In this document: positions 29,884 through 33,686 of the stretch, piece after piece | How the letters are laid out: each line of letters starts with the position of its first letter | Numbering within the stretch: the stretch's first letter is position 1 | DNA from: Betaproteobacteria bacterium | GTDB lineage: Bacteria; Pseudomonadota; Gammaproteobacteria; Burkholderiales; Usitatibacteraceae | Length of the DNA: 39,538 nt | Direction: 5' to 3' | Assembly (NCBI GenBank): GCA_019449455.1 | Contig: JAGRPO010000040.1 | Span: 1 to 39,538 of the forward strand | The notes under the pieces: model-generated | Database searches by the model: none | The model's input: the letters and a program-made list of their open reading frames with translations, nothing else | Told to the model about the DNA's origin: nothing | Position numbers and translations under genes: made by a program

Positions 29884-30591
29884 ATGAACGGGCTTGTCGT
29901 CGCGACCATCGTGCTCGGACTTGCCGTCGACCGGCACGGCGGCGCCCACGGCCAGCTCGCCGTGAGCGTCGGCGCCTGGGCCCTGCTGGCCCGGTTGTGG
30001 CTCGTTTCCCTTCCCGCGCAACGCCCCGCCCTCCTCGCCTGCCTGGTCTACGCCACCGCCGGCGAAGTGTTCCTGTCGCTGGTGTGGGGCCTGTACGACT
30101 ACCGCCTGGGCAACCTCCCGCTCTTCGTGCCGCCCGGGCACGTGCTGCTCTTCTACCTCGGCACTCAGCTCGCCGCGCGGCTCGACGACGGCGCGCCATG
30201 GTGGATCGCCGCGGCGGCCCTTCCCGTCGTGGCGGCTTTCGCGTGGACCGGCCGCGACACGCTGGGACCGTTCCTCTACGCGCTTTTCCTCGCGTGCATG
30301 GTCCTGTCCCCCTCGCGAAAGCTCTACGCGACGATGCTGGCGCTCTCGCTCGCGATGGAACTGTGGGGAACCTGGCTCGGCAACTGGACCTGGCGCCGCG
30401 AGGTGCCGTGGCTGGGGCTCGTCACCGACAACCCGCCGCTCGCTGCCGGCGCCTTCTACGCCGCGCTCGACATGCTCGTGGTGAGCACGGTCGGCGCCCG
30501 CCGCCGTCAATCGCCGGCGAGGCCCATCCTCACGCCCAGCACCGCCTCGCACCAGGCCGCGACCTGCAGCGCCCGCTCGTCCTCGCGGTAG
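29884..30591 (+). CDS. Integral membrane protein, unknown function
   Basis: A 235-residue protein with about seven hydrophobic segments, such as GLVVATIVLGLAV, ALLARLWLVSL, LLACLVYATAGEVFLSLVWG, WIAAAALPVVAAFAW and FLYALFLACMVL. Motifs LYDYRLGNLPLFVPPGHVL and WGTWLGNWTWRREVPWLGL are distinctive, but I cannot name the family with confidence. A TAGAAT box lies 7 bases before the ATG, so the message may be leaderless. The last 85 bases overlap the end of the convergent amidase gene; the final 28 or so residues are therefore probably non-conserved. Confidence 0.65.
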   Translation: MNGLVVATIVLGLAVDRHGGAHGQLAVSVGAWALLARLWLVSLPAQRPALLACLVYATAGEVFLSLVWGLYDYRLGNLPLFVPPGHVLLFYLGTQLAARLDDGAPWWIAAAALPVVAAFAWTGRDTLGPFLYALFLACMVLSPSRKLYATMLALSLAMELWGTWLGNWTWRREVPWLGLVTDNPPLAAGAFYAALDMLVVSTVGARRRQSPARPILTPSTASHQAATCSARSSSR

Positions 30592-31853
30592 CGGCCCACG
30601 ACCTGCATGCCCAGCGGCAGGCCGCGCGGGCCGCGACCGGAGGGCATGGTGATCGCCGGGAGCCCCGCCATCGACCACAACGAGCAGAAGGTGGCGTCGC
30701 CGGTGTTGCCCAGCCCCTCGGGCGCCTCGCCCACGGCGGGGATCGTGACGATGGCATCGCACCCGTCGTAGAGCCCGTCGAGCCAGCGGCGATACTCCTC
30801 GCGGCGCGCGAGGTTCTTCGCGTGCTGCTCCGGGGCGATGGCCTTGCCGCGGTCGAGGGCCTCGGTCAACGGCCGCGACATCTGCAGGCGGTGCCGCGAT
30901 TCGAGCGAGGCGAATCCGCGCGAGGCGTCGTAGTCCATGATCGCCCCGACCACGGTCCACGCCGAGTTGAAGGCCGGCGGCAGCGGCACGTCGCGCACCA
31001 GCGCCCCCGCGTCCTTGAGGTTGGCCACGGCCTCGGTGAAATTCGCCTGCTGCGCCTCCGAGGCCAGCGACCACTTCGGCGTCCTCACCACCGCCAGCCG
31101 CGGCGCATGCCCGAGCGGGGCGAGGGGCACGGCGAGCGAGCGCATGCCGGCACGGATGCCGGTGGCCTCGTCGCGCAGGTCGAGCCCCATGAGGCAGCAG
31201 CCGAACCAGGCCGCGTCCTCCACGGAACGCGCGAAGACGCCCACGTGGTCCAGCGTCTTGCTGAACGGGAACACGCCGTCGCGGGAAATGGCGCCGAAGC
31301 TCGGCTTGTACCCGACGACGCCGCAAAACGCCGCCGGCCGGATCACCGAGCCCAGCGTCTGGGTGCCGATGGCCACCGGCACGAACCCCGTTGCCACCGC
31401 CGCCGCCGAGCCGCTCGACGAGCCGCCGGGCGTATGCGCGTTGTTCCACGGGTTGCGCGTCTTGCCGGGCTGGCGGAAGGCGAACTCCGTCGTCACCGTC
31501 TTGCCCATCACCAGCCCGCCCAGCGCCTCGAGGCGGCGCACGAGCCCGGCGGAGCGCCCCGGCACGTGGTTCGCGAAGATGCGCGAGCCCATGCGCGTGG
31601 GGATTCCGCGCGTGGCGATGATGTCCTTCACGCCGACCGGAACGCCGTACAGGGGCAGGTCCTTGAGGATTCCGCCGGAACGCTCCTCGGCCTCGGCCAT
31701 GGCGCGCGCGGGCTCGAACCATTCGAAGGCCTGGATGCGCGGCTCGAGGGCCGCGACCCGGTCGTTGAGGGCCTGGACGTAGTCCGGAACCGTGAAACGG
31801 CCTTCCTTGAAGGCGGCGTGAAGGGCGCGAAGGCCGAGGGTGTGGGGTTCCAT
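30507..31853 (-). CDS. Amidase (amidase-signature family)
   Basis: A 448-residue amidase-signature hydrolase. The Ser-cisSer-Lys triad is visible: Lys76 in GVPVGVKDII, Ser145 in the GGSSSGSAAAVA signature, and Ser169 in TQTLGSVIRPA, with the 24-residue spacing typical of the family. It hydrolyses amides; the substrate cannot be told, and its membership does not imply GatA, since no gatB/gatC genes are present. It starts 44 bases after the GlcG/HbpS gene and may be the third gene of the riboswitch-headed operon. Its 3' end overlaps the convergent membrane protein gene. Confidence 0.92.
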   Translation of the reverse strand: MEPHTLGLRALHAAFKEGRFTVPDYVQALNDRVAALEPRIQAFEWFEPARAMAEAEERSGGILKDLPLYGVPVGVKDIIATRGIPTRMGSRIFANHVPGRSAGLVRRLEALGGLVMGKTVTTEFAFRQPGKTRNPWNNAHTPGGSSSGSAAAVATGFVPVAIGTQTLGSVIRPAAFCGVVGYKPSFGAISRDGVFPFSKTLDHVGVFARSVEDAAWFGCCLMGLDLRDEATGIRAGMRSLAVPLAPLGHAPRLAVVRTPKWSLASEAQQANFTEAVANLKDAGALVRDVPLPPAFNSAWTVVGAIMDYDASRGFASLESRHRLQMSRPLTEALDRGKAIAPEQHAKNLARREEYRRWLDGLYDGCDAIVTIPAVGEAPEGLGNTGDATFCSLWSMAGLPAITMPSGRGPRGLPLGMQVVGRYREDERALQVAAWCEAVLGVRMGLAGD

Positions 31854-31897: not shown

Positions 31898-32326
31898 TCA
31901 GGCGAGGGCCTGCCTGAGGGCGTCGATCCCGGCCTGGGCGACGATCTCGTCGTCGCTCGCTTTGACCCCCGAGACCCCGATGGCGCCCACCAGCTGGCCG
32001 TCGATCTCGACGGGGAGCCCGCCCTGCAGCACCACCGGGTCGCCGCCGGCGGACAGGAACGAAAAGCGCCCCTTGTTCACCATTTCCTCGAGGATGCGGG
32101 TAGGCCGCTTGTAGGCGACCGCGGTCCTGGCCTTGCCCATGGCGGTGGCCACGCTGGAGTACTGGGTGCCGTCGATGCGGTGGACGAGGAGCGCGTGGCC
32201 CCCGTCGTCGGCCACGGCGATGACCACCTTCCATCCGTTCTTCGCGGCGCAGGCCTCGGCGGCCTCGGCCATGAGCCTGGCCGCCTCGAGGGTCAGGGCC
32301 TTTTTCGTGTGCAACGTGACGGGCAT
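31898..32326 (-). CDS. GlcG/HbpS family (DUF336) protein
   Basis: A 142-residue protein of the HbpS-like fold: TLEAARLMAEAAEACAAKNGW, KVVIAVADDGGHALLVHRIDGT, ATAMGKARTAVAYKRPT, VEIDGQLVGAIGVSG and DDEIVAQAGIDALR are typical. Members bind haem or small molecules, or sit in metabolic operons without a known role. Length is normal and no signal peptide is seen. It starts 16 bases after the small LysR-type gene, and GGAGCG precedes the ATG, so the two are almost surely cotranscribed. Confidence 0.9.
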   Translation of the reverse strand: MPVTLHTKKALTLEAARLMAEAAEACAAKNGWKVVIAVADDGGHALLVHRIDGTQYSSVATAMGKARTAVAYKRPTRILEEMVNKGRFSFLSAGGDPVVLQGGLPVEIDGQLVGAIGVSGVKASDDEIVAQAGIDALRQALA

Positions 32327-32342: not shown

Positions 32343-32696
32343 TCAGGCGCCCGATGATACCTCCACGGGCGCGGCCGGCCGTTGCACCGGCCCCCCGGTC
32401 GCGAGCAACGCCTCGCGCCGCCCGTCGAAGCGGTCGATGGAGTCGAACATTTCCTCGCAGAGCGCGACGACCTCGCGCCCCAGGGCCGTGGGTTCCATGC
32501 GCCTGCCCTGAGCCTCGAGCACGGCGCCCCCCACCGCGTCGGCGAGCTTGCGCACCAGGCAGGAAACGGTGGGCTGGGCGAGGGAGAGCTCCTCCGCGGC
32601 GCGGGTCACGCTGCCGTGGCGCACGCAGGCCTCGAAGGCGACGAGCTGGGGAAAGAAGCCGTGGCGGAAGAAGCGTCGGAGTCGGGTGCGGGTCAT
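32343..32696 (-). CDS. Stand-alone LysR-type DNA-binding domain protein
   Basis: A 117-residue protein. Residues 14-85 match the complete N-terminal winged helix of LysR regulators (FFPQLVAFEACVRHGSVTRAA, then LSLAQPTVSCLVRKLADAVGG, then GRRMEPTALGREV). There is no co-inducer domain: the chain ends after the linker helix with a Pro/Ala-rich tail. The next gene begins 16 bases later, so there is no room for a frameshifted remainder. AAAGGA lies 5 bases before the ATG. The leader carries a manganese-type riboswitch. It may bind DNA constitutively as a dimer through the linker helix, or be a degenerate relic. Both are inferences. Confidence 0.8.
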   Translation of the reverse strand: MTRTRLRRFFRHGFFPQLVAFEACVRHGSVTRAAEELSLAQPTVSCLVRKLADAVGGAVLEAQGRRMEPTALGREVVALCEEMFDSIDRFDGRREALLATGGPVQRPAAPVEVSSGA

Positions 32697-32752
32697 CGCG
32701 TTTCCTTTCAGGTTGGCCAGCCGATCCGCCCCGCTCCCGTCGCCGGAAACGA

Positions 32753-32786
32753 AGCGGCCTTTGCCCCGGTCGGGACAAAGGCCGCT
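32753..32786 (-). terminator. Second hairpin of the riboswitch expression platform
   Basis: An 11-base perfect stem, AGCGGCCTTTG (32753-32763) with CAAAGGCCGCT (32776-32786), has a 12-base loop. On the minus strand it is followed by a weak U-rich TTCGTTTC. It repeats the CCTTTG/CAAAGG core and the GAAACGAA flank of the upstream hairpin, 41 bases away. Possible second terminator. Confidence 0.45.
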
Positions 32787-32796
32787 GAAACGAATG

Positions 32797-32925
32797 GACC
32801 TTTGCCGCGAACTGGCAAAGGTCTCGCTAACAAACCTGCGCGTCACGCCGCGCCGCTTGCCGATGGTACCGGGGCGAATGCCCGTCTTGACGACACCACC
32901 GTAAAAGCTACTCCCCTTTGTAGGG
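32797..32925 (-). promoter_or_regulatory. yybP-ykoY-type (Mn2+) riboswitch
   Basis: On the minus strand the leader has CAAAGGGGAGTAGC (GGGGAGTAGC at 32907-32916), a GTCGTCA element, and GCGAGACCTTTGCC ending at 32814. These are the conserved 5' and 3' ends of the yybP-ykoY aptamer. Stem P1 pairs CAAAGG (32915-32920) with CCTTTG (32816-32821). The same CCTTTG is part of GACCTTTGCC (32814-32823), which pairs perfectly with GGCAAAGGTC (32797-32806) downstream, giving two exclusive folds. In known cases Mn2+ binding stabilises P1 and switches on export genes. Here the next gene is a LysR-type domain. Recognition is by memory of the consensus, not by a covariance search. Confidence 0.78.
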
Positions 32926-32952
32926 CTGCCCCGCTCTTCGCGGGGCAGGCGA

Positions 32953-32981
32953 TTTATAAACGCAATGTCCCCACCGCGCAA
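32953..32981 (-). promoter_or_regulatory. Promoter of the riboswitch transcript
   Basis: On the minus strand, TTGCGC (32976-32981) and TATAAA (32953-32958) are 17 bases apart. The expected start at about 32946 lies directly before a 9-base GC hairpin (32926-32934 with 32940-32948) and then the aptamer. It is a strong, correctly oriented sigma-70-like promoter. Confidence 0.65.
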
Positions 32982-33158
32982 CTCCGGGCGCTGCCGCGGG
33001 GCGCGCCGGGCTTCCGCGATCGCGTAAGATGGCGCATCGCAACCGATTGTATCCAAAGCGCTTTTTATTCCAAGGGTCAAGCCGCGCCGGGCCCGGTGCG
33101 ACCTCGGTCCAACGGCACGGCCCGGAACCTGTGGGAAAATTGCGCGTCACAGTTAACT

Positions 33159-33686
33159 ATGACCGCCATGCTCAACCGCCTGCCTTCCCGCGTCCTCTTC
33201 GCTGCCATGTTCGTGGCGAGCGCCTCCCTCATCGCCTTCGGCCTCGCCTTGCAGCACGCCGTGGGGCTCGAACCCTGCCCGATGTGCATCCTGCAGCGCT
33301 ACGCGTTCGTGACGATCGGCGTGGTGGCGCTCATCGCCGCCATCCACGGCCCGGTGGGCATCGGGGTGCGCGTCTACTCCCTGCTCATCGCGGGGCTCGC
33401 CATCGCGGGCGGAAGCGTCTCGGTGCGCCAGTCGATCCTGCAACGATTCCCCGCCCCGGAGGCCGCGAACTGCATGGCGGGCGACCTCGATTTCCTCCTC
33501 GGCAACTTCCCGCTGGCCCAGGCCCTGCCGAAGATCTTCGCGGGCACCGGCGATTGCGCCAAGGTCGAGTGGAGCCTCCTCGGGCTTTCGATCGCGGAAT
33601 GGGCGCTGGTGTGGTTCCTGCTGTTCGTCACGACGGCTGCCTGGCTCGCGTTCTTCCGCAAACGCGCGGCCGCGGCCGTTGCCTGA
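33159..33686 (+). CDS. dsbB: Disulfide bond formation protein DsbB
   Basis: A 175-residue inner membrane protein with four hydrophobic segments. The first periplasmic Cys pair is CPMC in GLEPCPMCILQRYAF. The second pair is Cys in AANCMAGDL and Cys in GTGDCAKVEW, as in DsbB. It reoxidises DsbA and passes electrons to quinone. Two ATGs are possible (33159 or 33168). No good Shine-Dalgarno sequence is seen; the short TTAACTATG stretch may indicate a very short leader. The stop overlaps the PhoD TTG start by 8 bases. Confidence 0.93.
   Translation: MTAMLNRLPSRVLFAAMFVASASLIAFGLALQHAVGLEPCPMCILQRYAFVTIGVVALIAAIHGPVGIGVRVYSLLIAGLAIAGGSVSVRQSILQRFPAPEAANCMAGDLDFLLGNFPLAQALPKIFAGTGDCAKVEWSLLGLSIAEWALVWFLLFVTTAAWLAFFRKRAAAAVA

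Follow-up and report, generated by a model that had tools for sequence, protein, structure and literature searches.

Riboswitches of the yybP-ykoY class (RF00080) are built from P1.1-L1-P1.2, P3 with a seven-nucleotide L3 that carries an invariant adenosine, and P4; they possess an alternative hairpin that uses the 3' strand of P1.1, and they co-occur with genes for TerC, UPF0016 and P-type ATPases. Crystal structures show L3 as a 7-nt bulge in which the invariant adenosine, at the third position, senses Mn2+ via N7; the bulge reads UC-A41-AUUC in L. lactis and AC-A48-UACU in X. oryzae (PMC6754395). In the descriptions given so far, Mn2+ riboswitches directly regulate the mRNAs of transporters, and in the TerC-linked cases (B. 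subtilis meeY/ykoY and E. coli alx) the riboswitch resides on the terC mRNA itself; TerC proteins have been tied to Mn2+ handling (PMC10550928). A riboswitch placed before a regulator gene is found in Vibrio, where a c-di-GMP riboswitch (Vc2-type) lies upstream of tfoX orthologues (PMC6366702). CbbR-like LysR regulators, represented by 5y2v and by the DNA-binding domains of CbnR (5xxp) and BenM (4ihs), combine a winged helix-turn-helix (HTH) with a linker helix, are arranged divergently from their target and use T-N11-A dyads.

The window analysed here is a 39,538-nt stretch of betaproteobacterial DNA (contig JAGRPO010000040.1), in which an RNA leader precedes a gene for a short LysR-type protein, hereafter sLysR. 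The leader shares the stems, the loops, the alternative hairpin and the gene co-occurrence listed above with the yybP-ykoY class, and the short-LysR leaders differ from it in that they lack P2, fall under the Rfam cut-off and control a transcription factor instead of a transporter. With meeY/ykoY and alx, the locus has the RNA class and the apparent end-target protein family in common, whereas in the window's family the riboswitch is on a divergent regulator and terC has none. The Vc2-type/tfoX pair likewise constitutes a riboswitch-to-regulator relay, but with another RNA class, ligand and protein family, and without the loss of a protein sensor domain. In common with CbbR-like LysRs, sLysR has the winged HTH, the linker helix and, in relatives, a divergent arrangement with its putative target, T-N11-A dyads being candidate operators; it lacks the effector-binding domain, and the classical inducer mechanism is therefore impossible. 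Prior knowledge covered the RNA class, its TerC targets and, more generally, regulators under riboswitch control. A search of the open-access literature returned no paper linking a Mn2+ riboswitch to a LysR regulator, and a sensor-less LysR under a riboswitch was undescribed there, with incidental or no matches.

Organization of the RNA leader

All leader features lie on the minus strand. A sigma-70-like promoter, TTGCGC-N17-TATAAA (32953-32981), was assigned from sequence and coordinates, and sequence comparison located its CATTGCGTTTATAAATC core also in G004, G005 and G006. It is followed by a 5' hairpin, CUGCCCCGC-N5-GCGGGGCAG (32926-32948; -19.9 kcal/mol), directly before the aptamer. This hairpin was seen ahead of the aptamer in 12 of the 12 leaders inspected (the window and 11 others, from several families), at a constant place and with varying sequence; it lies outside the covariance model described below and may serve in 5'-end protection or as a folding aid.

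The P2-less aptamer of yybP-ykoY type (32816-32923) was delimited by RF00080, by covariance model R1, by the minimum-free-energy (MFE) fold and by covariation, and comprises P1.1 (CAAAGG/CCUUUG), L1 (GGGGAGUAG), P1.2, P3.1, L3, P3.2 and P4. The motif GGGGAGTAGC is located inside 32920-32907, CGTCA is present together with L3 (TCAAGAC, UCAAGAC in the RNA; 32890-32884), and GCGAGACCTTTG ends at 32816, on the 3' side of the aptamer. An alternative hairpin, GACCTTTGCC-N7-GGCAAAGGTC (32797-32823; -16.1 kcal/mol), overlaps the 3' strand of P1.1 and is terminator-like with a weak U-run, CAUUCGUUUC; the same hairpin carries a clean U-tract in the TerC leaders of sister species and likewise before sLysR in G006. 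Thereafter, a second, perfect 14-bp hairpin, GCGGCCUUUG...CAAAGGCCGC followed by UUCGUUUCC (32754-32785; -28.3 kcal/mol), is kept in all same-genus leaders, and the sLysR start codon is reached at 32696. Both hairpins (32823-32754) repeat the P1.1 strands CCUUUG/CAAAGG, and pairing of the first hairpin's 3' arm with the 5' arm of the other is feasible (-14.3 kcal/mol); a cascaded double switch is conceivable. The promoter, aptamer motifs, P1 pairing and alternative hairpin listed in an initial annotation of the window were thus all found on this strand.

Assignment to the yybP-ykoY class

The Rfam scan at the gathering threshold returned nothing in the window. The full RF00080 model aligned to 32928-32814 with 24.9 bits (E 5e-5 over 451 nt, 9e-5 genome-wide), which was the sole significant RF00080 match in the window's own genome (3.48 Mb, 341 contigs). 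The gathering score of 45 bits was also not attained by most relatives' leaders (15.8-39.1 bits), and short-LysR-type leaders score low against RF00080 as a group, a likely cause being the members without P2, which is missing from the window aptamer and seen in some relatives. The Rfam model misses such compact betaproteobacterial members of the class. As the score is sub-threshold, it is the fold, the core residues, the covariation and the gene association that carry the assignment.

Covariance model R1 was built from relatives of the window leader with the latter included, and the score of 93.5 bits for the window leader therefore arises partly by construction. An alignment of 22 related leaders, preceding short LysR, full-length LysR and TerC genes, was used for structural comparison. 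In 22/22, the unconstrained MFE structure equalled the fold with P1, P1.2 and L3 imposed, which is the Mn-aptamer architecture, with P1.1/L1/P1.2, P3 with its 7-nt L3, and P4 disposed around a multi-way junction. Covariation amounted to 0.378 vs 0.155 for shuffled alignments (0/500) and at most 0.098 for slid controls, with 93.7% of cells paired; the 15 short-LysR leaders alone gave 0.392 vs 0.170 shuffled (0/500) and 95.8% paired. Within the 22-leader alignment, P1.1 and P1.2 are invariant, and P3 and P4 covary. Each of the 29 LysR-linked aptamers carries an L1 core of GGGGAGTAG type and an L3 of the form TCANNNC, whose position-3 adenosine matches the Mn-sensing A41/A48; seven of these L3 loops read TCAATTC, identical to L. 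lactis.

Judged from these sequence features, the leader is a riboswitch of the yybP-ykoY (Mn2+) class with a compact, P2-less aptamer and Mn2+ as its putative ligand. The initial annotation had proposed the same identity and had staked it on a RF00080 match above threshold; the match obtained lay under the cut-off and, by that criterion, formally speaks against the identity, but this sub-threshold result was overridden because of conservation and covariation. The identity is upheld by the MFE folds, the covariation, the core residues and the conserved position before orthologous genes.

Genes downstream of the RNA across the order

Of the 300 genomes of the order searched with R1, 60 contained the RNA. 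The first gene behind the matches mostly encodes a TerC-family protein (PF03741; long, short and TerC-Usp forms), and the others encode LysR, CitMHS-like transporters, outer-membrane efflux proteins, UPF0016, a P-type ATPase, recognised by sequence and not by a Pfam search, and an ion channel. The RNA is thus associated with Mn-related genes, with TerC, UPF0016 and P-type ATPase downstream and, in relatives, terC divergent. LysR genes follow 29 of the 101 distinct aptamers, and all belong to one branch (15 short, 12 full-length and two partial LysRs).

The relatives surveyed were betaproteobacterial metagenome-assembled genomes (MAGs) and the closed genome of Betaproteobacteria bacterium GR16-43. 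The riboswitch precedes sLysR in eight of the eight family relatives with upstream sequence, as well as in other betaproteobacterial families, so that the comparison of the riboswitch-winged HTH pair suggested by the initial annotation came out in favour of conservation. Among 80 named LysR loci, those closest to the window protein are preceded by the riboswitch on the same strand, the exceptions being L201 and L203, both cut by contig ends, and the riboswitch is absent from 65 more distant loci; the LysR gene is therefore a conserved target and no accident of the window. No leader was found at a full-length LysR gene of the same clade in G193.

Several further associations were recorded. TerC proteins of ~405-428 residues, apparently fused to Usp (L160, L178, L183, L172, L144 and L135; L056, L058 and L059), are encoded under Mn riboswitches or adjoin riboswitch-sLysR, the Usp domain being shown for L160. 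The riboswitch also stands ahead of CitMHS/NhaD-like transporters of 460-516 residues (L141, L145, L154 (two), L163 (two) and L171), sometimes in tandem, which possibly constitute a further Mn-related transporter family. R1 matches were found upstream of an Ion_trans channel (L186, 842-943) and of three genes of outer-membrane-efflux type (L155, L181 and L185; OEP in L185), L155 and L181 being the weakest. In the window's own genome, the flanking stretches examined for the two other TerC genes and the UPF0016 gene yielded no Rfam match.

The DNA-binding-domain-only regulator

sLysR (32343-32696, minus strand) has 117 residues and comprises a LysR-type N-terminal winged HTH, detected as PF00126 only (E 3e-15), and the linker helix characteristic of LysR regulators. 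The effector-binding domain PF03466 is absent from it, and no convincing remnant was found downstream in the window. Its best match in the PDB is the CbbR-type 5y2v, and stand-alone LysR DNA-binding domains are represented there by 5xxp and 4ihs.

The 15 distinct short LysR proteins (105-176 residues) likewise consist of the winged HTH and linker helix alone, and the 12 LysRs under the riboswitch classed as full-length were recognised by PF03466 in two cases and by alignment in the others. Short forms occur in the window's genus, the GR16-43 genus, a second family (G232 and G261), G043, where the 136-residue protein is encoded beside a riboswitch-bearing TerC-Usp gene, and three named MAGs (122 residues). 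In a tree of the DNA-binding domains, they occupy three or more separate positions, modestly supported, which makes it likely, without proving it, that the effector domain was lost repeatedly. Most dN/dS values between sLysR orthologues lie at 0.12-0.45, which indicates proteins maintained under purifying selection; the window sLysR gave 0.14-0.19 against G002, G003, G004, G005 and G007. The LysR gene that the initial annotation had described as truncated does encode only a DNA-binding domain behind the riboswitch, but as a conserved protein and not as a one-off truncation.

Loss of the divergent terC gene

In seven relatives (G003, G005, G006, G007, G022, G023 and G024), a terC gene without a riboswitch of its own is divergent from riboswitch-sLysR, and at nine loci of other families a riboswitch-bearing LysR gene likewise diverges from a TerC gene, the latter under a separate riboswitch copy. 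The terC gene stands between sLysR and dsbB in G003, G005, G006, G023 and G024, and the full order amidase-hbpS-sLysR-riboswitch / terC-dsbB-phoD is present in G006, G023 and G024. This ancestral neighbour has been deleted from the window: the flanks of the junction (32983-33072) align to points ~1.96 kb apart in G006, which holds ~1.9 kb extra, including terC, at this position. A search for a terC remnant in the window found none, and G004 also lacks terC at this locus. In the window, the sLysR promoter now faces a dsbB-like gene (33159-33686, plus strand; start at 33159, 33168 or 33207).

The initial annotation had noted the lack of a metal transporter in the operon, where indeed there is none, and had suggested that an exporter gene was lost and the leader captured new genes. 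A gene of exporter type, terC, was in fact deleted nearby, but it was divergent and outside the operon. Capture of the leader after exporter loss was ruled out: the pairing of riboswitch and LysR gene is shared between families and older than the loss, and the regulator already had its riboswitch when terC disappeared.

Candidate operator

The terC-sLysR intergenic regions contain repeated dyads, ATTGCG-N3-CGCAAT or GATTGCGAWWCKCCATCG, that fit the T-N11-A LysR box. Allowing at most one mismatch, ATTGC-N5-GCAAT was present in 10 of 29 LysR-linked upstream regions vs 2 of 72 others, for a motif defined post hoc. The window retains a degenerate LysR-box-like dyad, GGTTGCGATGCGCCATC (33028-33044, minus strand), with three mismatches to GATTGCGAWWCKCCATCG, which is a candidate remnant operator and is not significant alone; the operator search with at most one mismatch gave no match anywhere in the window's genome. 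In the genome of G004, which did not contribute to the loci behind the motif's intergenic copies, the only exact GATTGCGAWWCKCCATCG match precedes another terC gene, itself behind an unrelated LysR gene. A genome-wide search with ATTGC-N5-GCAAT was too unspecific, with many matches in genomes of genus g3 without sLysR, and an 18-mer operator search returned mostly chance two-mismatch matches inside coding genes. The dyads may represent the sLysR operator, which, for a motif found after inspection of these regions, we regard as a lead and not as proof.

hbpS and the amidase gene

Downstream of sLysR, on the minus strand, lie genes for an HbpS/GlcG-like protein (PF03928, E 4e-35; 31898-32326) and an amidase (PF01425, E 5e-83; 30507-31853). 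The order sLysR-hbpS-amidase is found in all same-genus relatives examined and in G023 and G024, and not in G022, a closed genome in which riboswitch-sLysR is present and hbpS absent. At the 3' end of sLysR, just before hbpS, a conserved -10-like GGAGGTATCATCGGG (32350-32364, minus strand) constitutes a candidate promoter element. These 15 nucleotides are identical in seven same-genus genomes, silent sites included, and TATCAT also precedes hbpS in G023 and G024; GGAGGTATCATCGGG is probably a promoter element of hbpS. As it points to a separate promoter, membership of hbpS and the amidase gene in the riboswitch operon is not established, and of the operon initially annotated, the gene succession stands, but cotranscription with hbpS is uncertain.

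Proposed relay and alternative explanations

We consider it probable that a LysR devoid of its sensor is under the control of a Mn2+-ON riboswitch and conveys the signal to terC, and that the window shows this unit after its local target was lost. We infer the ligand, switching direction, DNA binding, operator, terC regulation and present target in the window as follows. By analogy with the described riboswitches, Mn2+ binding at L1/L3 would stabilise P1.1, which would block the hairpin at 32823-32797 that uses the same 3' strand, and the sLysR mRNA would be completed. The weak U-runs of the window's own hairpins count against a clear switching mode. sLysR made at high Mn2+ would then bind the T-N11-A dyads between the divergent genes, DNA binding by natural LysRs of this one-domain type being extrapolated from excised domains, and would control terC and probably itself. 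Activation of terC would fit a detoxification circuit, in which the RNA would act as the sensor and the protein as the relay. In the window's lineage, deletion of terC beside the unit has left riboswitch-sLysR-hbpS-amidase, with sLysR itself, hbpS or a distant gene as candidate present targets.

The same deletion raises the prospect of a relic, with riboswitch and sLysR persisting after terC loss and regulating nothing in the window's genome, as the degenerate operators and the lack of a genomic match with at most one mismatch would suggest. The aptamer is nevertheless intact, and the dN/dS of the window sLysR in most same-genus pairs argues weakly in the same direction, since the divergence may mostly predate the loss; we judge a relic unlikely. 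Somewhat less credit is given to a genuine riboswitch that serves to regulate hbpS and the amidase gene, with sLysR as a passenger or small co-regulator. HbpS-like proteins are associated with haem and iron and could plausibly be affected by Mn stress, and the gene order is kept in the genus, G023 and G024; yet G022 retains riboswitch-sLysR without hbpS, homologues of hbpS and of the amidase gene are missing from the vicinity of the riboswitch-LysR pairs in other families, a separate conserved -10-like element precedes hbpS, and sLysR is under purifying selection.

Equally improbable is an aptamer variant that responds to a divalent metal other than Mn2+, or to a pH-coupled signal, which the compact P2-less form, the low RF00080 score and the association with a regulator and TerC-Usp fusions would accommodate. 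Against it, all metal-site features of the crystal structures are kept, some L3 loops are identical to that of L. lactis, and RNAs of this kind are found before genes for TerC, UPF0016 and P-type ATPases. That an unrelated structured leader merely carries short matching motifs finds a foothold in the sub-threshold Rfam score and is scarcely credible, as it is contradicted by the covariation, the unconstrained folds, the core residues and the conserved gene association.

Within the Mn2+-ON relay, the origin of the one-domain protein may be sought in the riboswitch itself: once fixed on a LysR mRNA, it could have rendered the sensor domain dispensable, and this was apparently lost more than once, leaving a LysR whose activity would be set only by its riboswitch-controlled abundance and which would relay Mn2+ to the terC promoter. 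For this sequence of events, we see the chances as evenly balanced.

Implications

If true, the arrangement would be a conserved riboswitch-to-regulator relay, through which one RNA sensor controls genes in trans and amplifies or delays the response. That LysRs with and without the sensor domain occur side by side under one kind of riboswitch offers a testable case of an RNA sensor replacing a protein sensor.
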